NCBI GenBank assembly: GCA_018806915.1
Contig: JAGKQI010000009.1
Location: 124,001-188,000, forward strand
Direction: 5' to 3'
DNA length: 64,000 nt
DNA from: Phytophthora colocasiae
Taxonomy: Eukaryota > Oomycota > Peronosporomycetes > Peronosporales > Peronosporaceae
Shown: one piece after another, positions 6,874-64,000 of the stretch
How the letters are laid out: the number at the start of each line of letters is the position of its first letter
Position numbering within the stretch: the first letter of the stretch is position 1
Made by a program: the position numbers and the translations under genes
The notes under the pieces: model-generated
What the model was told of the DNA's origin: nothing
The model's input: only the letters and a program-made list of their open reading frames with translations
Databases searched by the model: none

Positions 6874-9800
6874 TTACTGAGGAAGATGCTCCTTAGACAA
6901 ACCGACCATCGCACATAAAGTCTCGAGTCTGTCGCTGGCCAGGGGCTTCGTCATGATATCGGAAGGATTAACTTCGGTCTTGACCTTCCACAAATCCATG
7001 GTTCTCTTAGCCACTTGGTCTCTCACGAAGTGCCAACGTAACTCGATGTGTCGCGTTCTGCGACTGTAAGTTGGGTTCGTCGCCATGACGAATGCCGCTT
7101 GGTTATCAATGCCCATGCGGAACTTAGTTTCCAACTCCGGAAACACCTCAATCAATACATTGCGAAGCCCTTGGCCGTCCATGCATGCCTCACATGCTGC
7201 AACGTACTCCGCCTCTGCGGTAGATTCAGCTACAATGCTCTGACGCCTAGATGCCCATGAAATGGCACCGCCCGCCATGCAATGCACAAAGCCCGTGATG
7301 CTCTTGCGTGTATCTGGGTCATTTCCCCAGTCAGAGTCACAATATCCATCCACAACCAGCTCTGGGTTCTGCTTTCCACTCTTCTCCCTGGAGTACACAA
7401 TTCCTAGCGTTTTGGTCCCAATGAGGTACCGCAGTACTCTCTTGGCTGCATCGATATGCTGCTGTGTAGGATTCTGTACGTAGCGACTGAGCTGACCAAC
7501 CACAAACGCGATATCCGGTCTCGTGCAGGTTGTCAAGTACATCAAAGATCCGACCAGCTCACGATATGGAAACGTCTTGCCATTTGCGGCCACCTGCTTC
7601 CGTTGATCTGTGTCGGTGTCTTTCACCGTCAAACGCATGTTTGTCTCCATTGGTATTCTACTGGGATGAGCGTCAGTAAAGTTGAACCGCTCAATGACCT
7701 CCTCGCAGTACTTGGTCTGGTGTATCTTAATAGACTTTTCGTTCTGCTCCACCTGAACTCCCAAGTAAGTGTTGAGTAGGCCCTGGTCCTTGAGGCCGTA
7801 GTCCATGTCGAGTTTCTCGAACATCTTCTTCTTGAACTCCTCGTTCTTGGTTGCACACAAGATGTCGTCGACATAGAGAAGAACAATGGCGAACTCGCCG
7901 TCTTTGTCGTAGAAGTACAAGCAAGGCTCAGTCTTGCACTGCTTGAACCCGTAGTTCACGAACCAGTTATTCACTTCTGAATTCCACTCTCTCCCGGACT
8001 GCCGTAGCCCGTATAGTGCCTTGTTGATGATGTAAATCATCCCGCCATCCTCGCACGGATAGCCTTCGACCTCCTCCAGATACTGCTTAATGCCTAGCGC
8101 AGCATTGAGGTAGGCTGTGTTTATATCTCCTTGGTAGATCACCAGGTTCAGAAGAATGCACACTGCAACAAACATTCTGAATGTCGCCATGCGTGCGACC
8201 GGCGAGAATGTGTCTGTGAAATCAATTCCGAAACGCTGCTTATCACCTCGAGCCACGACTCGTGCTTTGAAGGTCACAATGTAGCCTAAGTGATCAGTCT
8301 TCACGTCGAAAACCCACATTGTCTTGATGGCATGCTGTCCTGCCGGCATATCCGATCTTGGAATCTGCTTCAGCACATCCTTGGACTTCAGTGCAGCCAT
8401 CTCCTTGTCCATAGCCTCTTTCCAGAAACTCGCTTGTTTTGATCTCATTGCTTCTCTGTAGTTCCTGGGTATTTTGATATCACTAGCCCGTAAACCACCC
8501 TTGCCGCGTCGATCCGCATGCAGCGCTTTGAACGCCGAACAAACCTCAAAATCTTCGAATGGTTCACGCTCAGCAATTTCTCGAAGTCCAGCTCGTCTTG
8601 CTGCTATTACTCGCTGTGCGTTCACCTTGGTACGCTTCCGGTCTTGTGTGCGACGAACCTCTTCGTCTCTAGGGTGTACTTTTCCCACTAGCATCTGCTG
8701 AGGAAATCCAAGAACATCATCCCGGACTGGGTTTTGTGTTGATTGCCTTGGAGGATCATCTACTTCGTCACTCAGGTTGCTGTTCCACTCAGCTTCAAGT
8801 TCATCACTCGGGTCAAACAAGAAATCGCATCCATTCTCGTCACTCTCCACATCTTCTGAGACTGAAACAAGGTCTGCGACGTGACTAGCAACATCTTCGT
8901 GTTCAAAATCAACGAATTCATCGACTCCAACGTCATCATCACCGTCAAGTTCACAATTATCGTGTTCACTCACTGCCGCATCGGCATCGTCATCGCTCTC
9001 GACTTGAGCATCGTCTAAATCACCGTCATCGCTCTTGATGCTCACTTGAGCATCGTCAAAATCACCATCATGTTCACGATGTTCATCCTCGTTCTCATGT
9101 TCCTCGGTGCTGGCATCATCTTCGCCCTCCTGCGTTTGAACTAACGCAAGCTCGTAGTCTGGCATGGAACTATTCTCCAACATGTCGTGCCATACTTGTT
9201 GGTCTCCATCGGCCAGTTTGCTGCTTGGAGTGCTACTCGGTGCATCCTCGAATGTAGGTAGTACACTGTTCTGTACCATCTCATTCCACTGAGTCGCTTT
9301 CTCGGCATCCAGCTCTTCACTCTCAGCCACACTGACCATGTCCACGTTACTGTCTTCGCGAACTGAATCTTCATCACACTCCGCGTGTTGTGAAGATTCT
9401 TCACTGTCACTATCTCCATCGTCAAAGTAGCCATCTTCGACAAAGTCTGTAAACGTTTGCAGCCATTTGTTCACTTTGGTCTTGAACGTACTGCCGTATC
9501 TGTCCTTATACTTAATCGATTCGTTCACTTTCACGTCTGCAACGAAGCCTTTCTGATGCTCCGTAGGGAAATACACTTGACAACCCACAACATCTTCCTG
9601 GTAGCCGATAAGAAATCCCACCTTGCAGTTCACAGCCAACTTCGTACGCTTGGCGACCGGAGTGTGGCAATACACCAGTGAACCAAAAGTCCGGATATGA
9701 TGAAGATCCGGTTTCGTTCCATACATCATTTCATACGGCGTACGGCCAGCCCCCTTACAGAAAACTCTGTTCTTGATGTAGACTGCAGTCTGTAGGGCAT

Positions 9801-17516: not shown

Positions 17517-17978
17517 CTTAATGGGTCTGCTTAGACCTATTAGATGGCGTACACGTGCGCTTACGTGTATGAGGAAGCGTGCAATTAGATTAGACTTAAT
17601 TTAAGTATACTTATTTAAATAAGTATAATTAAATCAAATATAACTAAATTAAACTGCAAAATACCGTAAAATGAGAACTGTTATTGAATTTGGTACAAAG
17701 CCAATTATCGGACCTCCTCAAACTGTTTGTTATCTATTTCTAAAGGGTCTGCCAACGTGTGGTTGGCAGAAACTCTGCTCAATGATTGGTAGAAATCCGT
17801 TACTTTCTACCAATGAAATGCACAAATGCGCACGAACCACCCAATAATGTGGTTCGCCCATGTAGCCATTGGTGTGTACAGCACACCAAGGTCTGAGGTC
17901 CGTTTCCAACCTCTAACAGTTATCCTAACTGTTAGAGTTACAAGTGGTACAACCACTTATACGTGTAACCCTGTTACA
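17517..17978 (-). repeat. Solo LTR of family C
   Basis: About 460 bp, matching the LTRs at 42136-42595 and 59578-60037, ending TGTTACA at 17978. The first two bases of the other end differ from the canonical TG. It lies inside a gag remnant of another element. Hairpins typical of the family are present, for example ATTGGTAGAAA with TTTCTACCAAT near 17784-17814. No target duplication is recognisable. Confidence 0.8.
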
Positions 17979-18041
17979 CTGAGTATGGCATATCTTCTCC
18001 TTCATAGCGTTGTCACCAATCTGCATTTTTCTTTGTGGTAG
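17979..18041 (-). pseudogene. Gag remnant, upstream piece
   Basis: Minus strand reads KMQIGDNAMKEKICHTQ; together with 16912-17516 it forms one gag gene split by the family C solo LTR. Too short to classify alone. Confidence 0.4.
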
Positions 18042-18260: not shown

Positions 18261-18781
18261 CACGTTGCTAATTACGATTTTTCGGGTGGATATGGACGTT
18301 TCGCTGTGATGTGATTGGACATATACTGGATTGTGGGAGAAAGGAAGATGTGGGACGAGGTTATGTCCCGTGCGACAATGATGGATCTGTGGAAGAAAAC
18401 TGCTATGTCTATTAACCTTCACCTGTACTGCAAAGGGGCCCAAGAGATCAGAAGTGTTCCTCGGAAAAGTGCACAAACTCCGAGAGACAATAGCACTCAG
18501 TCTGATCACCGGACTTTCCCCGACGATGAGTGCCTAAAGGTTGGCAGAAAGTCTCTCAGAAGAATGTATCTCTGAGAGACCTCATCCCGTTGCCGTCCTG
18601 TGTGACGATGATGGTTCAAGGAATACAGTTATACCCACAAGATACCAAGTATCGCGCACCGGACGTAGCGCACCCCGCGCATATCCCAACTGGACCTCGT
18701 GCGTTGTAGCATACGTGCTCCGCACCCTGAAAACACTCATGGATTTCTGGTATCACGCATGGAAACTCTGATACCACACCA

Positions 18782-40716: not shown

Positions 40717-42135
40717 GAAAAGTGGACTTCAGAGCCGTATAACGATAGGTTGGCGTGTGGTACCTTGCGGTATCCTCGTGGGTTCGTTGTCTTCGGAAAT
40801 ATGACCCTCGCCGGAGTCTGAGAGTATGGTGTGAAGAGAAGTTGGAGTTCCCTTGGAGTCTGGTGTCGGTATTCAGGAAATCCTTCCAGGAGCGTTCGGG
40901 AGTCGGAATCTCTGGGAACCGAGATGGTTTCCAGAAAGTCGGCGGTCGAAAAGAGATTAATATACCAGAGAAAGTCTGAAATCGGTGTCTGAATATCACA
41001 AATCCAGAACCGAGATACCTGACCTTCAGAGATAAACAACCAATAAACAGAGTTCGAAAATATACAAATATATACAGCCGCTCTTATTCTTTCTAGGCCC
41101 TTGAACGGTGGGCTAACACTCAAGGTCAACTAGGAGCTTGCTACCAGACACCTGGTCTGCCTGGTATCCCTTTACGTTCGCGCACCACCCTCTAGTATAG
41201 AGGGAAAATATAAACCAATACAATCGGCAATATATAACAGTCTACCTTGCACTCTGAAAACGACTGTCTAGTTTCCAGAGCCTGTCCAAACGAGCAATAT
41301 GAAATGGGCTACCGCTAGAGACAAAACAAACGACCCAACTAGGATATGGAATAGGCGGGTCCTTTCAGGTCTCTACGTTACCTGATCTCCACCTAAGGGG
41401 ACTGAATTTGGTGGAGATCACACGGCGTACGTCCTTGACGCAGTGGCTTGAATACCGCTCAAGCGGACTTGTGCAGTAGCAAGCAAATTGAACTCTGTTT
41501 ATCGTTTATCTTTCTCATAACTATCATATATCTCTGGTAACTCTCTCCTTCTTGTCGTCTTTTGCGTCCTTTATTCAGTCAGTCTTCATATCTCAGGTAC
41601 TCTTGGTCTTCGTATGCATCTGGCATCTTGACTTGGTCTCAGTATGCAGCCTGTGCAGCCGATCTCGATGGGTTGACAGGTAGAGACGTCATTACGGGGG
41701 ATGTGCAGGTCAGTAATCACTTGAATGCGTGACTTGAACTTGGGTTCACTTGGTTTTAGTATGGTCTTGGATCTTCGTTGATTTCAGAGTCTGGTATCCT
41801 GGTTTTCAGAGTCTTCGTCACTCAGAGTTGGGGGAACCAGAGTCTTGAGTGGAATACCAGAGTACGGAGCACCAATGCTTCAACGTACATGAAGATCTTG
41901 AGGGTTGCGCGGGTGCGCGGCGTCCGGCGCGCGATACTTGGTCTCTGCGGGTATATATTGTGAACCTTGAACCATCAATCGTCGCGCTGGACGGTAACGG
42001 GATGAGGTCTCTCAGAGATACGTTCTTCTGAGAGACTTTCCGCCAGAAATTAGGCACTCATCGTCGGGCAAAGTCTGGTGACCAGACAGAGTGCATTTAA
42101 CCTTCAGAGTTGTGCACACCCTGAAGTACACTTCT
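40717..42135 (-). repeat. Family B LTR, inverted, truncated at both ends
   Basis: Reverse complement of most of 18446-20070, with substantial divergence and indels. The left end is cut at the E1 junction; the right end meets the family C1 LTR at AGAAG/TGTAAC. Because homology to 18446 begins exactly at AGAAG, C1 probably entered inside this LTR. Confidence 0.75.
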
Positions 42136-42595
42136 TGTAACAGGCTTACACGTACAAGTGGTTGTACCACTTGTTACTCTAACAGTTAGGATAACTGTTA
42201 GAGGTTGGAAATGGGCCTCAGACCTTGGTGTGCTGTACACACCAAAGGATACATGGGCGAACCACATTATTGGGTGGTTCGTGTGCATTTGTGCATATTA
42301 TTGGTAGAAATTAACGGGTTTCTACCAATCACTGAGCAGAGTTTCTGCCAACCACACGTTGGCAGACCCTTTAGAAATAGATAACAAACAGTTTTAGGAG
42401 GTCCATAATTGGCTTATGCCAAATTCAATAACAGTTCTCATTTTACGGTATTTTGCAGTTTAATTTAGTTATATTTGATTTAATTATAATTATTTAAATA
42501 AGTATACTTAAATTAAGTCTATTCTAATTGCACGCTTCCTCATACACGTAAGCGCACGTGTACGCCATCTAATAGGTCTAGGTATACCCATTACA
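42136..42595 (+). repeat. Gypsy-C1 5' LTR (460 bp)
   Basis: TGTAACAGG...CATTACA; the same length as the C2 LTR at 59578-60037, which is in the opposite direction. Densely packed with hairpins. Confidence 0.9.
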
Positions 42596-42596
42596 C

Positions 42597-42612
42597 TGGT
42601 AGCACTTTGTAG
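42597..42612 (+). promoter_or_regulatory. Gypsy-C1 primer-binding site
   Basis: TGGTAGCACTTTGTAG one base after the LTR; the first seven bases match the common TGGTAGC start of Met-type primer sites. Confidence 0.6.
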
Positions 42613-42708
42613 TCCGTCCCACGACCGACTGCAGTTCGTTCGTATGGAGTCATACGAACGCGGGGTAGAGAACTCCCCAATGATGAGGGATCCACTGGGA
42701 CCCCTCAC

Positions 42709-43665
42709 ATGTCCGTGACGCGCACCGACTGCGCCCACCTGTCAGATCCAGAGTGGGAAGCTCTCCAAAGACTTTCACAAGTCATTGGAGAGGCAGCGGT
42801 AGCGACGGTGCTTCGTACGCTATCGCCGACAGAGCAACACGGTGTTGCTCTGGGGTACATTGTTAAGGAGCAACGAGATGTTGCTGCCTCGGTGGCTTCC
42901 CCGAAGCCACGCGTGGGGTCGTTGAAACTCCACGTGAGTACCTACACGAGGAAGGAGGACGAGACCCTCCTTTGGTGGCCTGTCGAACTCGACACAGCCG
43001 TTGCGGCTCGACGTATCGTCGATCCGATGTCGAAGGTCGCGTTCGCCATGTCATGTCTTGGTGGACGTGCGAGGAGTTGGGCCTATGGGCGCCGACTCTC
43101 GGATCCTGCGTGCTTCAGCACGTACGAGGTGTTCAAAGAGGAGCTCAAGCTTGCGTTTGAGCCTCCGAAGAACGAGTTCAGATCGAGAGCGGAGTTTCTC
43201 GATCTGCAGCAGGGCAAGGATGATGTTCACACCTTTGCCCAGCGTGCTCGATACTTGGTATATGAGGCCACCGATGTGGCCTCCAGGGCTCTTAGCTCGC
43301 CCAGCAGCACTGCTGCGACGGCTAGCCCTAGCCAAAGGCGCAGTAGGTCTCCGTCCCTACCGCCTGATACTCGACCGAATCCTCGGTTCGAGTATAGGGA
43401 CCATAGTCCCGGTTCCTGGAGTCCTTCCGAACAGGAAGCGACTCTTGTCAGCTACTCGGGCGACGAGAGCAACAACGATGACGCCGAGGGCAAGCCTGCG
43501 GCTGGTGCTCCGACCACGGAGGAGCACCTTGGAGACAAGGACACCGCGTCCAAGTCTCCCGACAACACCAGCGGCCGTGGTGGCGACACTACGCCACCAC
43601 CTGTCAGACATCTGACACTTGCTGAAGGGCGCGAACGCGCCCGGCCATTCTGGCAGAGGAGAAGG
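42709..43665 (+). CDS. Gypsy-C1 gag, 3' end cut by E2
   Basis: ATG 42709 (MSVTRTDCAHLSDPEWEALQ). Residues ~95-190 are a Ty3-type gag domain (VAFAMSCLGGRARSWAYGR; ELKLAFEPPKNEFRSRAEFL; DVHTFAQRARYLVYEA). A Ser/Pro/Asp/Thr-rich tail follows, without the zinc knuckle one would expect; it may lie beyond the insertion. Codon choice creates successive perfect hairpins, for example CAGATCGAGA/TCTCGATCTG at 43179-43206. Confidence 0.8.
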
Positions 43666-44915
43666 TGTGGTGGAGCGGATCTGCCAAAATCTCGTTGAGG
43701 CAGGTCTCGATCACCACTTGCGCCCAGACACCGACTAACGGAGGGGTCCCCCGATGATCCGTGATCTAGCTGTGTGTAGTTTCACCTTGTGTACCCGTCG
43801 GTAGGCGGGTTACGCTCTTCCAGGTGACTTCTGAGGATGTCTTGAAGGTCGGAAGAAAGTATTGCGTGACGCAGGGGGTTGAGGTAGCGTGGAAGTTCTT
43901 CACTCCACCTCGGGGTACTTGATCCCGGTCGTAGGCGAGTTCTCGAGCCTTGATCCGGGCGCCTGGTTCTTGATCCAGGTCTTCCAATAGTCCAGTGTTA
44001 GGGGTTCGATCCCTTCTTCTCGTTGTTTACCGCTTCCTTTAGCGGGGGTCTTGAGGGGGCGAGATTCGACGGGATCCTTAGGCTAAACAACCAATTCCTT
44101 CCGATCCGATGTATGCACTTAAAGGATAGTTCACTAGATAGGGCAAAGCTGGCCAATATATTGTCCAGACTTAACCGCTATACTAGGTCACGTATCCTTA
44201 CCTTCTTGACGCTTGTAGGGCCAATGTAGTTCCCGGTTCCAGGCGTAGCGAAGACACTTGAGTGGTTCAGGGCAAATTCGAGTCTGTTTATGGTTATTCC
44301 TATGCCTACTAATCCCATCCTGATTTACTATCCTACGATCACATGACACTGGCTACATACCTGATCCCTAACTTGGTTCCCCTAACCCTGATGGTGACTT
44401 GATCTCGTACTTAGTCGGGGAGGTGCTCGCCGCCAGATCCCGCTTGGTAGTCGTTCAGAGAATCAGGATCGGGGTACCAGAAGAGTCTGCATCGGGCTTA
44501 GGGCTGAGCTTGATAGGAAGCTGATCTCGTACTTAAACGGGAGAGGATCACTACGTGATCCTGCCGCCCGGAGAATTAGGATCATGTCGTTAGAAGGCTC
44601 CAGGACGCCGGGATGATCCGTGAGCCAAAATCACGCTCCCTCGGGACCCCGCCATCGCCGATCGCGCTAGAACACCCTTGATCTCCTTATTCTTCCACCC
44701 GGTAGAACTCCGATCACCAACGAACACCGCTCCCCGTCCTTCGAACGACCTTCGGCTGATGTCCCTGTTGCCTGTTCCCCGATGGGATCCCTCGTACCCT
44801 CATCTGATTCGCGTCAGATCTGGGCATCACCGGTCCCCCTGTCGCTTGTTCCGGCTCTCTTCGGTTATGTGGCTGATATCGCCTCTCCGTGAAATTTCTC
44901 GTTCGCTTTACCACA
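43666..44915 (-). repeat. E2 3' LTR (1250 bp, family A relative)
   Basis: On the plus strand it begins TGTGGTGGAGCGG and ends CTTTACCACA, followed by the inverted purine tract TCCGCCCCC. The element is therefore in the minus direction. It interrupts the gag of C1. Confidence 0.85.
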
Positions 44916-58759: not shown

Positions 58760-59577
58760 CTGGCCCATAGCCAACGGATGCGCGAGACCGATCGGGATTA
58801 CCTAGATGACGCCGTTCGCCGGTTGCGGTCTGACATGGCAGCTATGGAGCACTTCCGAGACGACCAGGCGGAAGAGATCCTGCGTCTGAACGCTGAAATC
58901 GTCCGTCTGCGATCGGGAACCAGATGTACCGTCAGTGGGGATGCAATCGCTGCCCTGCAAGCTCAGCGGGTCCAGCACGCCGCCGAGCGTCAGGACTCTG
59001 AACAGCGCATGGCCCGGATCCAGGCGCAGCTAGACTCTGCCCTCGAGGATCTCGACTTCCGGATGGCCGAACTCCGCGAAGCGGGGGAGACGGAAATCGA
59101 ACTCCGGGATGAACTCCAGGATCGCGAACGGGAGCTTGCTGCCGCGCGCCACGACTTGAGTCTTGCTCAACGTAGCCTTGATCGCTGGCAGAGGGACGAT
59201 TCCCTCCCAGGCCCACAAGCCATCATGGCTCCGTCTGCCGGTCAGGTTCGCTCTTCGGCAGAGGAAGCTCGGTTGAGGTTGGAACTGACTCGGACCCAAG
59301 CGGAATTGCTCGCCGCTCGAGCTGAGGTCGCGTATCTGGAACGCGAGGCGGAGGATCGTCAGGCTGAGCTGGCCTGGGCACACCTCGCCTTGGAAGATGT
59401 GCCTGCATCGGATTCGCGCGTTCCGCCCCCAGACGCGGCTGCCGACGCCGCCGCTATTTCCAGTCTGGAGCAAGATCTAGCGGATGCCTTGGGCAATCTG
59501 GAAATAATCCAGCACGACCGGGACCAGCTCTCCGTCAAGCATCGTGCCGCGGTCGTCGAGCGAGATCAGGCCGTCGC
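58760..59577 (+). pseudogene. E2 antisense coiled-coil ORF, second part
   Basis: Resumes the ORF of 45019-45160 in phase (LAHSQRMRETDRDYLDDAVR) and runs as coiled coil to ERDQAVA, where the family C2 LTR enters at 59578. About 320 codons of the ORF remain in total. Confidence 0.8.
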
Positions 59578-60037
59578 TGTAATTGGTCTACCTAGACCTA
59601 TTAGATGGCGTACACGTGCGCTTACGTGTATGAGGAAGCGTGCAATTAGAATAGACTTAATTTAAGTATACTTATTTAAATAATTATAATTAAATCAAAT
59701 ATAACTAAATTAAGCTGCAAAATACCGTAAAATGAGAACTGTTATTGAATTTGGCATAAGCCAATTATGGACCTCCTAAAACTGTTTGTTATCTATTTCT
59801 AAAGGGTCTGCCAACGTGTGGTTGGCAGAAACTCTGCTCAGTGATTGGTAGAAATCCGTTACTTTCTACCAATAATATGCACAAATGCACACGAACCATC
59901 CAATAATGTGGTTCGCCCATGTATCCATTGGTGTGTACAGCACACCAAGGTCTGAGGCCCATTTCCAACCTCTAACAGTTATCCTAACTGTTAGAGTTAC
60001 AAGTGGTACAACCACTTGTACGTGTAACCCCGTTACA
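59578..60037 (-). repeat. Gypsy-C2 3' LTR (460 bp)
   Basis: Plus-strand ends TGTAATTGG and CCGTTACA. Hairpins include TCTGCCAAC/GTTGGCAGA (59807-59829), ATTGGTAGAAA/TTTCTACCAAT (59844-59873) and TCTAACAGTTA/TAACTGTTAGA (59971-59995). Confidence 0.9.
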
Positions 60038-60047
60038 CCATCCCCCC
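60038..60047 (-). promoter_or_regulatory. Gypsy-C2 polypurine tract
   Basis: GGGGGGATGG on the minus strand immediately before the 3' LTR. Confidence 0.7.
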
Positions 60048-60138
60048 GTTAAGATTCGACGTATCGGTCTCGATACGTCAATCAACAGAACTTGACAAGA
60101 CCGTCAAGTTCCCAAGAGAAATCCGAGTTCATTTTGCA

Positions 60139-61689
60139 ATGGACTCGCCAACGCCCACGTCTCCGTCCGCTACTGCGGACGCGCAAGCCTCACCTGCTGT
60201 CTCTGCAGCAGGAACAACGACCTCAGCAGTGCTCACTAGTACTGCTGCTTCCAGCGGTCCGACAGAGAAGCTCTCTGTCACTAAGTACCATGCTCTCCAT
60301 AAGGAGAAGCATGAGAAGAAGAAGAAGTCTTCTTCTCTAGCAGAGATTAAGAATCCTGCTTTCCCTCTCAAAGAACTCTTTGGAGAGGACTACGAAGACA
60401 TCCTCGACTACGAGGAGGATGTCGAGGAGGGGGAGGTTGATGTCAAGGCTCCCGCTCCCGTGTCTTCGTCCGAAGACACGTCAGACCCACCCATGGGATC
60501 TCGACGACCTCGTCATGAGGCCTCGGACGCTTCAAGCTCGAAGCGTCCGCGCAGTGATGATGAAGCGTCCCCCATGTCGAGGGCGCTCACTGCCCCGCGC
60601 ACTGATCCGCCAGTGCGCACGCCATGGATGCCTACTGAGGCAGAAATCCATGACCGGTTCGGTGCTAGTTCACCACCGAACCCGATACTGTTGTACTCAT
60701 GCAACAGTATCAACGACGACGACGTCGCCGCTAAGGTTGTCTTTGAGTCCGAGACTCAAAGACGCGACTACTATATCGGGCTCTTCCACGAGCTCCGATA
60801 CTATGCAGCTAAGAAGACTTTACGCAAGAGCAAAGTGCCAGAGTGGCAGGCACTTTGTCAGTCGTGGAACGCCTTTGTTGAAAACTTCAACAAAGACCCG
60901 AAGGCATATCGCGATCGCGTTGCTGCGGCTCGCGATCGCTACTACACTTACACTACACGTGGTAAGTGTGAACACCTCCATGATCAGTCCATGGAAGCGG
61001 GGATCCCATGTGCCGTTCCCTTTGGCACACCCTGTCCGTGTTGCCCACCCTTGGCAACACGCCTTACCGAAAGTGATCTCCTGGGGTACACGGTCGTCCG
61101 TGTACCCGATCACATCAAGGAGCTTCGTGGTCGTATTGTGCCACGCGAAGCTCCGAGTGCTGTGGCTGACCGCAGCACTCCTCGTGCAGGGTTTAACCCT
61201 GCAAGTTATGGTGGGCTTCGTACGCCCTCACCATTTCCGGAACGTCCTCCATCAGGACGTTCCGCGGCTCCCATGTATCTCGATGGGGAGGAAATCCTCT
61301 CCAACGAATACGAAAACGAACCCCTTGAGAGTTCGTTCTCTTATGAGCCACAATCCTCTCAACAATCCAGCGGATCGCTCCACGCGCGTCGCGCAACGGC
61401 GGCGGAGGGGGTGGGAACACTCCCTCCGCATGGTCAACGCTATGACCATGACGATCGTGCCCTGCACGATCGAGTTGCTGCGCTGGAGCAGACACAGAGC
61501 GCTGAGATAGCTGCTCTGAAGCAGGAGGTTCGTGTCCTCCGTGCTGAGGTCTGCGAGGCAGCTCAGACTGCCTCGAACCTCTCGTCCGGTCTTGGGACGA
61601 GAGTGAACCGATTGATCGACCGTGTCGACGGTCTCGAGAAGGCCTTCCAGGCCTCTCGCACTCCTCAGTCGGACTACCAACGTAGGTAG
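60139..61689 (+). CDS. Gypsy-C2 antisense ORF (516 aa), overlaps pol chromodomain
   Basis: Runs opposite to pol. ATG 60139 (MDSPTPTSPSATADAQ), Ala/Ser/Thr-rich start, Lys-rich stretch (KEKHEKKKKSSSLAEIKNPA), acidic block (EDYEDILDYEEDVEEGEVDV), a probable folded centre (VVFESETQRRDYYIGLFHEL; WQALCQSWNAFVENFNKDPK) with a Cys-rich CEHLHDQ...PCPCCPP segment, and a C-terminal coiled coil (SAEIAALKQEVRVLRAEVCE). No family recognised. Composition and segmentation are those of a real protein, yet 61193-61495 on the other strand encodes a chromodomain, so this DNA appears to code on both strands. Confidence 0.65.
   Translation: MDSPTPTSPSATADAQASPAVSAAGTTTSAVLTSTAASSGPTEKLSVTKYHALHKEKHEKKKKSSSLAEIKNPAFPLKELFGEDYEDILDYEEDVEEGEVDVKAPAPVSSSEDTSDPPMGSRRPRHEASDASSSKRPRSDDEASPMSRALTAPRTDPPVRTPWMPTEAEIHDRFGASSPPNPILLYSCNSINDDDVAAKVVFESETQRRDYYIGLFHELRYYAAKKTLRKSKVPEWQALCQSWNAFVENFNKDPKAYRDRVAAARDRYYTYTTRGKCEHLHDQSMEAGIPCAVPFGTPCPCCPPLATRLTESDLLGYTVVRVPDHIKELRGRIVPREAPSAVADRSTPRAGFNPASYGGLRTPSPFPERPPSGRSAAPMYLDGEEILSNEYENEPLESSFSYEPQSSQQSSGSLHARRATAAEGVGTLPPHGQRYDHDDRALHDRVAALEQTQSAEIAALKQEVRVLRAEVCEAAQTASNLSSGLGTRVNRLIDRVDGLEKAFQASRTPQSDYQRR
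61193..61495 (-). CDS. Gypsy-C2 pol C-terminal chromodomain
   Basis: The minus-strand frame reads PPPPPLRDARGAIRWIVERI, then RFRIRWRGFPPHRDTWEPR and EDVPEMVRAYEAHH, a chromodomain with the aromatic cage-type W/F positions and the usual Gypsy-pol position after integrase. It is in a different frame from the upstream integrase segment, so one or more shifts occur in the linker (61,500-61,740). The whole domain lies within the antisense ORF on the other strand. Confidence 0.7.
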   Translation of the reverse strand: MSAPAQQLDRAGHDRHGHSVDHAEGVFPPPPPPLRDARGAIRWIVERIVAHKRTNSQGVRFRIRWRGFPPHRDTWEPRNVLMEDVPEMVRAYEAHHNLQG

Positions 61690-61739
61690 TCCGTGCTGCA
61701 CGTACGGCTTCAACCGCCCGACGTAGAAGGTCGGGTGTA

Positions 61740-62292
61740 GCCTCATGCTGGACGGTATGTCCAGCCGGTACGCGTTACCATGCCGTTCAAGTACTTTGAA
61801 CGGCCCAATGAATCTTGGAGCAAGCTTGCTTGCTCCAAAGTCAGACACTGCATGTTTAGGCAGGTTTTGTGTAGCTAACAAAACTAATGAACCCACTTTG
61901 AATTCATTTATGTTGCCCCTACCAACATTATCAGCGTTCAGCTTCTGTCGATCGACAGAAGCTGCGATAGCATCCTGGACAAACCGTATGACGGCTTGTC
62001 TTCGCTGGACAAAGTCTAGCGCACCCGAGCTGAATCCTTTCAGCTTGTCGCCCTTGTCAGCAGCAGGCCCTGCCTGCTCGCTATCATCTCTCATGTCTGT
62101 GCCCGGCACAGACATCGCGCGCTTGTTCCTGCTCGAACGAGACGTCGCACGCGTCACCGCAGCTGATAGTGTGCTGCTATCAGTTGCATTCTGCGGTTGT
62201 TCGGACGCAACCGTAGATCCTCCCCCACTTAAGGAGGAAGCTACCCTGCCGAGCATGCTCGGCAATCGTGGATGCCTCATGGCGTTTGGCAA
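61740..62292 (-). CDS. Gypsy-C2 integrase C-terminal region
   Basis: Minus-strand frame RQAVIRFVQDAIAASVDRQK, then INEFKVGSLVLLATQNLP and ASKLAPRFIGPFKVLERHGN ending RLHPTFYVGRLKPYV, the GPY/F-type module that follows the integrase core in Gypsy elements. It is out of frame with the core because of a break at about 62,290, where some sequence also seems to be missing. The open frame runs on to 61252, but the part beyond RLKPYV is not protein-like. Confidence 0.75.
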
Positions 62293-64000
62293 ACTCTGCC
62301 ATCGGCAAGCACTCGCTCCAGTGCGGGAACGAGTGAGCGTAGCTCTTCAACGTGTCACCCAATACACGGTTGACACGTTCGGTCTGTCCGTCCGTCTGCG
62401 GATGATCCGCAGTCGACATTGATAGCTGTGAACCAAGAAGTGTAAACACTTCTTGCCAGAACCGCGCTGTGAAGCGTGGATCACGGTCCGACACAATGTC
62501 GAGCGGCATGCCATGGTGTTTGAACACCATGTCAACAAACAGTCGCGCAGTCTGCGCGGCTGTAACAGTAGCTGGGACGGCAGCAAGATGAACCATCTTA
62601 CTGAATCGGTCCACAAAGACAACGATGCCCGTCCTCCGCTTGCTGTCAGGCGGAAGACCGAAGACAAAGTCCATGGACATGGACTGCCAACACTCCGACG
62701 GAGTCGGTAGTGATTGAAGAGGAGCCTGCGAGAGCTGCGCAGGCTTCACGCGTTGACAAACCTCGCAAGCACGTACGTACTTGCGCACCCACTTGTACTG
62801 GTGGTGCCAGTAGAAGTCACGCGTGAGAAGAGTGTATGTCTTCTCACGACCCGGATGCCCTGCCGTGGGGGCATCGTGATACTCGAACATGATCCTCAAC
62901 CGGAGGTCATGATCATTCGGAACGACAATGCGATCCGCATTGTCGTCTACTGCACTGTACAACAGTAGGCCTTCGTGTACACGATAGCGGTGTATACGAG
63001 CTCGAAGATGAGGGGTTAGCTTCCGACGTGCCACGTCGGAAGGTGCTGCGAGGAATTCCAGCAGCCCCTTCGCGTCTGCATCCCTTGCATACGCGTTCTT
63101 CACGTCGTCAACCAACGTTGACGACGGCACACTTGTCCTCACGACGCCAACAGCGTTGGCGTCGACTGTCTCCGCATAGTCAGGTCGACGCGATAACGCG
63201 TCAGCCACTACATTGAGTCTTCCGGGTTTGTACTCCACCCGGAAGTTGTACTCCGCGAAGAAGGACAACCATCTCGCCATACGTTGCGAGATGTGCGGCG
63301 ACTTAATCGCCGTACGCAATGATGCGTGGTCTGTATAGACCACGAACGGTCTACTCCCAAGTAGATACACTCGGAACTTTGCGAGTGCATACTTCATGGC
63401 AAGGAGCTCCTTGTCATGTACGGGATAATTACGCTCAGCTGGCTTCAGCTGACGCGATTGATAATAGACTACACGATCACGCCCTTCGTGATCGTGTTGC
63501 ATCAATGCACATCCGATTGCAAAGTCGGATGCATCGCACACTACGTGGAATGGACGATCTTGGTCCGCTACGGCCAAGATCGGCGCTTCAGTCAAGCCCT
63601 GCTTGACTGCACCGAATGCCTCCTCGCACTCGGTCGTCCAAATCCACTCAGCTTCTTTCTTAAGAAGCTGTGACAACGGGCGAATCTTGCCCGCATAGTT
63701 GTCCACGTACTTGCACAAGTACGTGGCAAGCCCAAGGAACTGCCTCAGTTCCTTCACATTGGATGGCGTGGGCCATTCATTGATCACTCTGACCTTCTCT
63801 GGGTCAGGGCGCACGCCGTCTTTCCCCACGAGACACCCCAGCACGGGTATCTCGCTCGCCCCGAAGATACACTTCTTCAGGTTCGCATAGAGCTTATGTT
63901 TCCTCATAAGCTCTAGCAGCTTCCGGAGATGCACCTTGTGCATCTCAATGTCCGTCTTCCCGTTCACAGCCCGGCTGTGGACGAACACGTCGTCAAAGTA
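62180..64000 (-). CDS. Gypsy-C2 RT (C-terminal), RNase H and integrase core, continues past right edge
   Basis: The frame enters from the right edge with the RT catalytic YFDD at 63989-64000. RT thumb (GKDGVRPDPEKVRVINEWPT), RNase H (VVCDASDFAIGCALMQHD; KELLAMKYAL; YTDHASL with all three expected acidic sites), integrase HHCC finger (HDAPTAGHPGREKTYTLL; CEVC) and DDE core (MDFVFGLP; DIVSDRDPRF; DHPQTDGQTERVNR) follow. After LPMAEFA the frame is lost near 62,290. The DNA is covered by perfect hairpins, many with 9-11 bp stems. Confidence 0.9.
   Translation of the reverse strand, partial: YFDDVFVHSRAVNGKTDIEMHKVHLRKLLELMRKHKLYANLKKCIFGASEIPVLGCLVGKDGVRPDPEKVRVINEWPTPSNVKELRQFLGLATYLCKYVDNYAGKIRPLSQLLKKEAEWIWTTECEEAFGAVKQGLTEAPILAVADQDRPFHVVCDASDFAIGCALMQHDHEGRDRVVYYQSRQLKPAERNYPVHDKELLAMKYALAKFRVYLLGSRPFVVYTDHASLRTAIKSPHISQRMARWLSFFAEYNFRVEYKPGRLNVVADALSRRPDYAETVDANAVGVVRTSVPSSTLVDDVKNAYARDADAKGLLEFLAAPSDVARRKLTPHLRARIHRYRVHEGLLLYSAVDDNADRIVVPNDHDLRLRIMFEYHDAPTAGHPGREKTYTLLTRDFYWHHQYKWVRKYVRACEVCQRVKPAQLSQAPLQSLPTPSECWQSMSMDFVFGLPPDSKRRTGIVVFVDRFSKMVHLAAVPATVTAAQTARLFVDMVFKHHGMPLDIVSDRDPRFTARFWQEVFTLLGSQLSMSTADHPQTDGQTERVNRVLGDTLKSYAHSFPHWSECLPMAEFAKRHEASTIAEHARQGSFLLKWGRIYGCVRTTAECN

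Follow-up and report, generated by a model that had tools for sequence, protein, structure and literature searches.

A stretch of Phytophthora colocasiae DNA raises the question of what could tile a mobile element with short perfect hairpins, coding sequence included, and keep them there. The DNA is a 64-kb window of contig JAGKQI010000009.1 (GCA_018806915.1, positions 124,001-188,000), the whole stretch that was analysed. Inverted repeats were scanned with perfect pairing, a stem of at least 8 bp and a loop of at most 12 nt, which yielded 99 hairpins in the window, 56 of them within 58-64 kb. The 19 hairpins located there by the first-pass annotation all proved to be inverted repeats, paired without mismatch over 9-11 bp, and two of them could be extended by one pair.

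Parts and copies of the family C element

By its sequence features, family C is a Ty3/Gypsy LTR retrotransposon with a whole sequence of 8.3 kb, and its host is likely a Phytophthora. In the full copy used as reference, L010, two LTRs in direct repeat (522-985 and 8353-8817, L010 coordinates) are 99.8% identical. The window contains the 3' LTR (~465 bp) of an element with minus-strand pol at 59578..60043 on the minus strand, 98.3% identical to the L010 LTR. The C-terminal part of pol follows at 62180..64000 (minus strand), cut by the window end, while the open frame in the contig is 1371 aa long. Pfam placed its domains in the order RT, RNase H, integrase, all on the minus strand, with the RT end at 63833-64000, RNase H at 63248-63640, integrase zinc-binding at 62741-62914, and the integrase core at 62399-62686. 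The RT match comprises the cut end only and is for that reason below the Pfam cut-off; full-frame relatives have PF00078.

Between pol and the 3' LTR, a hairpin-tiled antisense ORF occupies 60139..61689 on the plus strand (516 aa from the ATG; 553 aa stop to stop from 60028). It had 496 homologues at E<=1e-3 among 7991 scored candidates, and among the 120 matches listed nearly all were from Phytophthora, the best being from P. citrophthora with 83% identity. A Pfam search of this ORF gave no match above the cut-off.

Another family C fragment, in opposite orientation, comprises an LTR and the start of gag at 42136..43261 (plus strand), is 96.8% identical to L010 527-1653 and holds 10 hairpins in 1126 bp. 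Its gag ORF at 42613-43698 (plus strand) carries the Retrotrans_gag domain PF03732 (Pfam, 42613-43695), and the homologous ORF of L010 lies at 1161-2021. At 17519..17979 (minus strand), an LTR with no adjoining internal region matched is 95.0% identical to the L010 LTRs and has 6 hairpins in 461 bp. The element recurs on many contigs with 99-100% identity at 40 of 40 scored places. L053 and L054, picked for low protein identity, were 97-98% identical to L010 across most of their length. In a search for families at intermediate distance, the rows for P0005 and P0037 among the matches listed resembled family C copies.

Hairpin density and codon choice

The 56 hairpins of the window copy (stems of 8-13 bp, loops of 0-11 nt) extend from 59807 to 63946 across LTR, antisense ORF and pol, at ~12.7 per kb of 59577-64000, compared with 0.75 hairpins in 20 dinucleotide shuffles. 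The full copy L010 had 116 hairpins and its 10 shuffles 1.8, an excess of about sixtyfold. LTR hairpins were located at 59807-59829, 59844-59873, 59928-59948, 59970-59996, and 59998-60020. Among the others, 60739..60763 in the antisense ORF has an 11-bp stem and a 3-nt loop, pol codons hold stems of 11 and 10 bp with 3-nt loops at 62922..62946 and 63142..63164, respectively, and RNase H codons an 11-bp stem with a 5-nt loop at 63471..63497. The longest stem of the window copy is loop-less and 13 bp long (61939..61964). While the first-pass annotation was right to place hairpins in the LTR, pol and the antisense ORF, they were not confined to these parts: in L010 they tiled the entire element, gag and pr included, with a density in the LTR similar to that of the coding parts.

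Stem lengths in L010 peaked at 9 bp, with nearly none past 11 bp and a longest stem of 13 bp. Stem length was greater where the loop measured 0-2 nt (9.96 bp, compared with 9.20 bp; p=0.0018), in line with a strand that must turn back on itself. Each of 32 copies retained 55-64 hairpins in a segment of ~4.6 kb. Predicted folding energy per 300 nt was on average 7.2 SD (sense) and 8.6 SD (antisense) below shuffles, with most of the excess from pairs less than 30 nt apart, and sense-strand z ranged from -3.7 to -13.2 in 40 of 40 windows along the element; the controls, Copia and another Gypsy, reached -0.9 and -0.75, respectively. An Rfam search of 59500-64000 gave no match reaching the gathering score.

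The non-family-C stretches of the window carried 0-7 times the hairpins of chance. Counts were 3 (1.95 shuffled) at 1-12.1 kb, which includes the Copia element, 1 (1.10) at 12.1-17.4 kb, 4 (0.85) at 18-22.7 kb, 6 (2.60) at 22.7-34 kb with another Gypsy that has a chromodomain, 3 (1.65) at 34-42 kb, 4 (0.60) at 43.4-46 kb, 4 (2.50) at 46-58 kb with a third Gypsy, and 0 (0.30) at 58-59.57 kb. The Copia and the two other Gypsy stretches did not show the family C excess. Direct repeats of the same size numbered 9 in L010 (1.8 shuffled) and mirror repeats 2 (2.3 shuffled), so the hairpin excess is not a matter of low complexity.

Shuffling synonymous codons, 100 times per ORF, did not reproduce the density. 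Observed and shuffled hairpins were 9 and 0.30 in gag, 36 and 1.14 in pr-RT, 36 and 1.07 (maximum 5) in RT-RNase H-IN, and 26 and 0.94 in the antisense ORF, a loss of ~97% that leaves about 1 of 36. Amino acids under stems were not more divergent from eight close relatives (4 of 169 conserved columns vs. 24 of 517 elsewhere). The claim that codon choice had been moulded therefore held. Over all 104 relatives, variable columns were commoner at stem codons (91/176 vs. 201/527), and the protein may have given room for stems at such columns.

Two further protein comparisons were made. Relatives' proteins were compatible with the hairpins in 40.5% of 259 cases, more than the 24.3% of a substitution null; as the cases are not independent and 1 of 30 hairpins failed the self-check, this comparison does not count among the main evidence. 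When close and far relatives were compared for how variable their amino acids are under stems, p was 0.07 one way and 0.08 the opposite way.

Chance, low complexity, and codon bias were ruled out by the dinucleotide and synonymous shuffles together with the direct and mirror repeat controls. An origin of the tiling in any of these or in an assembly artefact found no support in the tests run and deserves next to no credence, as the shuffles fell far below the observed counts, direct and mirror repeats were few, and the element recurs nearly unchanged on many contigs with hairpins in 32 of 32 copies.

Variation among copies and related families

Variation was compared among 32 family C copies of this genome (~4.6 kb each), from which the 5'-truncated L038 was left out. 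Synonymous third positions were variable at 29 of 273 sites in stems, 23 of 57 in loops and 184 of 798 outside stems overall, and when the stem map was shifted circularly 2000 times, the observed ratio was never attained. Synonymous variants common to at least two copies occurred at 6 of 273 stem sites, 73 of 741 outside (p=1.6e-5) and 7 of 57 in loops; at codon positions 1 and 2 such variants occurred at 8 of 555 and 40 of 1540 sites in stems and outside, respectively. Synonymous stem sites were about as scarce in shared variants as codon positions 1 and 2, and the stem deficit, clear at synonymous positions, was not clear at the other two. Shorter stems were depleted too (5 bp, 19/131; 6-7 bp, 18/164), and mirror-pair controls showed no depletion (18/56 and 11/30). 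Over all sites, variants per column amounted to 0.117 in stems, 0.36 in strict loops, 0.199 in outer flanks, and 0.179 elsewhere, loops being about twice as variable as their surroundings (loop vs. elsewhere, p=1.3e-7). The young copies L010 and L044 differed by 2.0% in stems, 4.0% in loops and 2.7% in other columns. Stems of the antisense ORF were less variable (29 variants in 384 columns vs. 88 in 765), and LTR stems were not depleted in six copies (8 in 160 vs. 11 in 305). Conserved stems, variable loops and ordinary flanks support selection on single-strand folding of RNA or cDNA.

If paired bases were protected and stems simply mutated less, without selection, loops would mutate more at every codon position, which they did. 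However, this predicts 3.2 variants at stem positions 1 and 2, where 8 were observed (P=0.017), and leaves the origin of hairpins by synonymous choice unexplained; we regard it as very unlikely.

The hairpins could also be a functionless by-product of mutation, if template switching in reverse transcription perfected quasi-palindromes and kept correcting them. Template switching, described for DNA replication, can create and maintain RNA hairpins with perfect stems and compensatory change, as set out in the part of PMC8794818 used here. Family C resembles these in its perfect Watson-Crick pairs without G-U preference, and its LTR and coding densities are alike. Codon pairing registers A, B and C were without strong bias (14/14/8 in RT-IN, 11/12/13 in pr-RT, 10/7/9 in the antisense ORF, 5/3/1 in gag), and tandem units of the pr region covary, in that compensatory changes, T..V vs. 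A..A amino-acid pairs among them, distinguish their paralogous hairpins; this fits selection on pairing as well. Tandem units with broken pairing, which count against such selection, also exist, and one of them recurs 16 times among the scanned copies. L010 and L044 differ by one Watson-Crick double change, in a hairpin with two other changed pairs, and compensatory changes among copies were otherwise confined to the tandem-unit region.

Correction should, we infer, carry a mutation over into the opposite arm with roughly the frequency at which it undoes one. Yet the 523 non-tandem pairs, with 133 minor pair states, contained no Watson-Crick double change, and the one of L010 and L044 stands against 26 broken pairs. 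Among 44 clustered private changes, 4 created or extended a hairpin, 17 broke one and 23 did neither, while 17 of 484 single private changes created a hairpin and 99 broke one, all of these being raw counts. The fidelity of stem amino acids to close relatives and the scarcity of stem variants, clear at synonymous positions and not at positions 1 and 2, also speak against template switching, which is quite improbable overall. Of the three causes first proposed, selection on single-strand folding of RNA or cDNA gained support, and template-switch repair as a present process did not.

RNA selection should favour G-U pairs, and the lack of a fixed preference for them argues against it. One-mismatch stems in at least 60% of copies comprised 8 G-T and 8 A-C mismatches, and those in L010 alone 11 and 12, respectively. 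No frequency class was significant for G-U tolerance over all sites, and the antisense ORF showed none (7 G-U vs. 10 A-C). Polymorphism leaned weakly to G-U tolerance on the pol-sense strand (interaction p=0.038). Five tests of G-U asymmetry, as a mark of selection on RNA alone, gave a weak signal or none. The selected object might then be single-stranded minus-strand cDNA, with hairpins guarding against deaminase, nuclease, and foreign annealing in reverse transcription. The missing G-U preference fits this, as does folding of about equal strength on both strands. On the pol-sense strand, loops were more variable at A, G, and T but not at C, a weak hint of other-strand damage from small numbers (C columns, 25, with 6 variants). 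The somewhat better tolerance of synonymous changes that produce G-U on the pol-sense strand counts against cDNA as the selected object, which we consider unlikely.

The expectation that only family C would show a hairpin excess failed, as two related Gypsy families had 12-25-fold excesses at about a quarter of the family C density. Hairpins of the sister family D coincided with those of family C at chance level (3 of 11, 33% expected). Shared functional sites were ruled out as a cause on the ground that D and C hairpins do not coincide. Family D stems were less variable than elsewhere (104/490 vs. 1764/6029), and its loops showed no raised variation (19/135). With hairpins of a related family at unrelated places, they are probably needed at no particular site.

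The structure is local, uniform and whole-length, which would suit hairpins that help virus-like particles to package genomic RNA by compacting it, or that provide many weak Gag contacts. Ty3 RNA mixes folded with dynamic regions and has a palindrome for dimerisation in its 5' part (PMC11381356). Against this role, loops shared no common motif (31 distinct sequences in 42 loops of 2-4 nt) and varied at twice the rate of their surroundings, and other Gypsy elements of the window lack the tiling. Packaging or Gag binding is a doubtful explanation, albeit one to be taken seriously.

Proposed shelter from silencing and relation to known systems

The explanation to which we give a little more than even credence is that hairpins tiling the whole element are kept by purifying selection on Watson-Crick pairing, probably local and acting via codon choice, and would shield folded RNA or cDNA from small-RNA silencing. 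The hairpins probably form in the cell, where, with stems of 8-13 bp, they would turn the single strand of RNA (or cDNA) into a row of small helices, and this row would shield the element from small-RNA-guided silencing. Stems that rarely exceed 11 bp would probably be too short to serve Dicer well as substrates. Because genes lie on both strands of the element, the transcripts of both would have to be sheltered. The folded molecule may be RNA rather than minus-strand cDNA, and the benefit may be protection against guide RNAs and against the formation of sense-antisense duplexes. Hairpin density was no higher in the antisense ORF region, so sense-antisense duplexes alone are not the explanation. 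More tentatively, a retrotransposon could have recast its whole genome, one codon after another, as a strand-symmetric series of one-turn hairpins, an anti-silencing armour that lies in the shape of the RNA throughout and not in a protein.

In P. infestans, small RNAs map across two abundant Gypsy elements in both orientations, with main LTR-element sizes of 21 nt and 25/26 nt (PMC3522703, in part). Counting against the silencing shelter, miRNA-like structure in maize accompanies more small RNAs and not fewer, according to the part of PMC10760457 used. Grande, RIRE2 and Retand carry an extra ORF antisense between pol and the 3' LTR, in place and orientation as in family C, and genomic RNA may pair with such antisense transcripts into dsRNA; these three are plant elements, and the portion of PMC7264820 used does not mention hairpin tiling.

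As in genome-scale ordered RNA structure, the folding energy of family C is far below sequence-order controls along the whole element. In contrast to the viral genomes concerned, which were compared by description only, it is an LTR retrotransposon with discrete perfect hairpins of about one turn, short loops and nearly equal folding on both strands. Viral contigs were searched for relatives of family C, and none was confirmed. Coding palindromes of Nematomorpha mitochondria are likewise perfect inverted repeats in conserved coding sequence, gained and lost at different sites (PMC6649704, in part). While those are mitochondrial, reach 284 bp and show a pairing-phase bias, family C arms nearly stop at 11 bp and lack such long stems (13 bp at most in L010), its density is roughly uniform, and its copies show constraint. 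Ty3/Ty1 genomic RNA shares the Ty3/Gypsy type and folded regions across pol; it is a mosaic of stable and dynamic regions, and perfect-hairpin tiling is not mentioned in the part of PMC11381356 used. Searches of the open PMC literature turned up no description of a retrotransposon with hairpin tiling.

If true, mobile elements can evolve under genome-wide selection on RNA (or cDNA) folding, as proposed for some RNA viruses, and the shape of the whole transcript would constrain synonymous stem sites roughly as tightly as amino-acid sites are constrained. Synonymous sites of hairpin-tiled elements would then not be neutral clocks. A DNA-borne element that comes in dozens of nearly identical natural copies, alongside related families that differ by degrees in density within one genome, would make the purpose of pervasive structure directly testable.

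Hairpins in family C and other elements

An inverted-repeat scan for perfect hairpins (stem of at least 8 bp, loop of at most 12 nt) recovered 99 in the window, 56 of them in its final 6 kb. The part of the Ty3/Gypsy family C element lying in the window (59577-64000) carried 56 hairpins against 0.75 expected from dinucleotide shuffles, and the 19 perfect hairpins of the first-pass annotation were all present where it had placed them (19/19), with stems of 9-11 bp. Both remaining family C fragments in the window were hairpin-rich as well. Counts were near chance in the Copia stretch (3 vs 1.95 shuffled), the chromodomain Gypsy (6 vs 2.60) and the third Gypsy (4 vs 2.50), and two other stretches reached 4.7 and 6.7 times chance, but with only four hairpins each. 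At the window start (2-2746) lies a host gene encoding sulfate permease, STAS and cyclic-nucleotide-binding domains. A near-identical 10-bp hairpin occurs three times, at 18551-18580 and 42007-42036 of the window and at 585-614 of the family C copy L038, each outside the family C match and about 100-600 bases away; it is perhaps part of a separate repeat adjoining family C.

Family C is cut by the window end and has many copies in the genome (92.5 Mb, 105 contigs); a DNA search gave 860 candidates, of which 40 were scored, all 99-100% identical over 1.1 kb. One copy, L010, spans the full element with both LTRs (8.3 kb; LTRs of 465 bp, 99.8% identical). It has frames for gag, protease-RT and RT-RNase H-integrase (RT-IN), and its pol and 3' LTR are separated by an antisense ORF (60139-61689 in the window). 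It holds 116 inverted repeats against 1.8 in shuffles, and few direct (9 vs 1.8) or mirror repeats (2 vs 2.3). Hairpins per kb amount to 15.1 in each LTR, 9.7 in leader and gag, 17.8 in protease-RT, 11.7 in RT-IN and 16.5 in the antisense ORF. Stems of 8, 9, 10, 11, 12 and 13 bp number 26, 44, 26, 17, 2 and 1, respectively, and loops span 0-11 nt, the excess dwindling past a loop of about 11. The closest named protein matches of pol and the antisense ORF are Phytophthora proteins, and the host is accordingly considered to belong to Phytophthora or to a nearby lineage. The antisense ORF protein, which is without a Pfam domain, is conserved among Phytophthora species, with 83% identity in P. citrophthora and about 42-68% in several other species.

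Searches with relatives' proteins identified two further Gypsy families, D and E. Identity to the P. cinnamomi protein P0055 was 68% for E, about 75-85% for D (main matches) and 58-62% for C, and family D pol (L046-L049, L051) is 53% identical to that of family C over 1038 aligned residues. Family D copies held 28-29 hairpins per 7.1-7.4 kb against 1.1-1.7 shuffled (17 vs 0.85 in L051), and family E 16 against 1.35; synonymous shuffling reduced the 18 hairpins of one family D pol (L047) to 1.9. A density far above shuffles in family C only had been named beforehand as support; the Copia and other Gypsy elements of the window agree with this, but D and E do not, both being in excess. Families C, D and E form a natural graded series of hairpin density. 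The D and E copies have about a quarter of the family C density, and GC is 59-60% in L050 (family E) and L051. Of 11 family D hairpins mapping on C pol, 3 overlap a C hairpin, as expected by chance (33%), so the families share hairpin richness and not hairpin sites.

Codon choice and constraint on stems

In 100 synonymous-codon shuffles per ORF, the 36 hairpins of RT-IN and the 36 of protease-RT dropped to about 1 in each case, the 9 of gag to 0.3 and the 26 of the antisense ORF to 0.9, in agreement with the earlier claim that codon choice has been moulded. The protein beneath the hairpins is not unusual, as stem codons departed from the majority of eight close relatives at 4/169 conserved columns against 24/517 outside, and from that of all 104 relatives at 2/85 against 6/326. 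Columns varying among the 104 relatives were commoner under stems (91/176 vs 201/527), and hairpins may favour sites where the protein has room.

Segments of about 4.6 kb were aligned from 33 family C copies, and the truncated L038 was left out; each of the remaining 32 (L012, L014-L037, L039-L045) contained 55-64 hairpins. Variable synonymous sites in non-tandem pol numbered 29/273 in stems, 23/57 in loops and 184/798 outside stems including loops; when the stem map was shifted circularly 2000 times, the ratio was never this low. Synonymous variants in at least two copies, which are either passed on by an active element or common by descent, numbered 6/273 in stems, 7/57 in loops and 73/741 outside (p=1.6e-5). 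Given 8/555 stem and 40/1540 outside variants of this kind at codon positions 1 and 2, a synonymous stem site is constrained about as much as an amino-acid site.

Sites variable in any copy were also counted with Watson-Crick pairing swapped for other rules at the same geometry. Watson-Crick stems gave 19/131 at 5 bp, 18/164 at 6-7 bp and 26/246 at 8 bp or more. Mirror pairs gave 18/56 and 11/30 at 5 and 6-7 bp, transition partners 18/56 and 1/9 (the latter too few), and A-C/G-T pairs 10/46, equal to background (188/825), and 2/14, again too few. The low variation relative to control pairings shows that constraint extends to shorter Watson-Crick stems, which agrees with their own excess. Stems were also less variable in the antisense ORF (29 variants in 384 columns vs 88 in 765) and in family D (104 in 490 vs 1764 in 6029), but not in the LTR of six copies (8 in 160 vs 11 in 305).

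Variation and upkeep of the hairpins

Variants per column were 0.117 in stems, 0.36 in strict loops, 0.199 at 2-5 nt outside hairpins and 0.179 in the rest (loop vs rest, p=1.3e-7). Variation was raised at codon positions 1 and 2 in loops as well, which suggests that mutation is commoner there and thus that hairpins would at some point fold within single-stranded nucleic acid. Loops were no more variable in four family D copies (19 variants in 135 columns). In the 32 family C copies, pol-sense loop variation was lower for C than for A, G and T; pol loop columns had 6 variants in 25 C and 23 in 52 G, which are small numbers.

At about 2830-3260 of L010, the protease region contains tandem units whose paralogous hairpins show matched changes in the two arms, the codons pairing in both T..V and A..A units. 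Mixed or recombined units that break pairing exist, one type 16 times in the copies scanned. Each unit repeats the encoded motif S-(T/A)-(P/L)-G-(V/A)-D, most units have their own hairpin, and family C copies differ in them.

Template switching had been put forward as a cause; as a mutational means of hairpin upkeep, such correction would be expected to carry about half of arm mutations onto the opposite arm. No Watson-Crick double change was found among 133 minor pair states (523 pairs outside tandem units), and the L044 hairpins compared with L010 over full length showed one against 26 broken pairs. New changes broke more hairpins than they made, both when clustered (17 vs 4, n=44) and single (99 vs 17, n=484), counts that have no random-mutation baseline. 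Upkeep by selection is therefore favoured over the mutational cause, which was not borne out; selection purging arm mutations would leave few double changes at such shallow depth.

Folded molecule and putative function

Folding energy predicted by ViennaRNA averaged 7.2 SD (pol-sense strand) and 8.6 SD (opposite strand) lower than in shuffles. Pairs at most 30 nt apart supplied most of it (per 300 nt, -117.8 kcal/mol out of -135.9); values for other elements were -0.9 (Copia), -0.75 (Gypsy at 48-54 kb) and -1.4 SD (family D). Evidence from G-U pairs was mixed. Fixed one-mismatch stems comprised 8 G-T and 8 A-C, and pol-sense synonymous polymorphism leaned to G-U tolerance (odds ratios 0.76 vs 0.29, p=0.038); no frequency class was significant over all sites, and the antisense ORF showed no such lean. 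The folded molecule is possibly RNA, both RNAs, or minus-strand cDNA.

Within the open PMC titles and abstracts listed by the searches, no retrotransposon tiled with perfect hairpins was described. Among the closest known cases are the coding palindromes of nematomorph mitochondria (PMC6649704) and the genome-scale ordered structure of viruses. The hairpins may serve to shield the element from guide RNAs, to aid compaction or packaging, or to protect cDNA, and these candidate functions are not mutually exclusive. Shielding is chosen as the putative function partly because stems seldom exceed one helical turn, which would be too short for Dicer. Against it, structure in maize accompanies more small RNAs (PMC10760457), and hairpin density in L010 shows no link with the antisense ORF. 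Shielding remains the putative function we commit to, since in P. infestans two abundant Gypsy elements are covered by small RNAs on both strands (PMC3522703), family C has genes on both strands, with the antisense protein conserved in Phytophthora, antisense transcripts of this kind may form dsRNA with genomic RNA (PMC7264820), and a shielding role of pervasive structure has been proposed for viral RNA (PMC9784701); the hairpins of family C would act likewise against guide RNAs.
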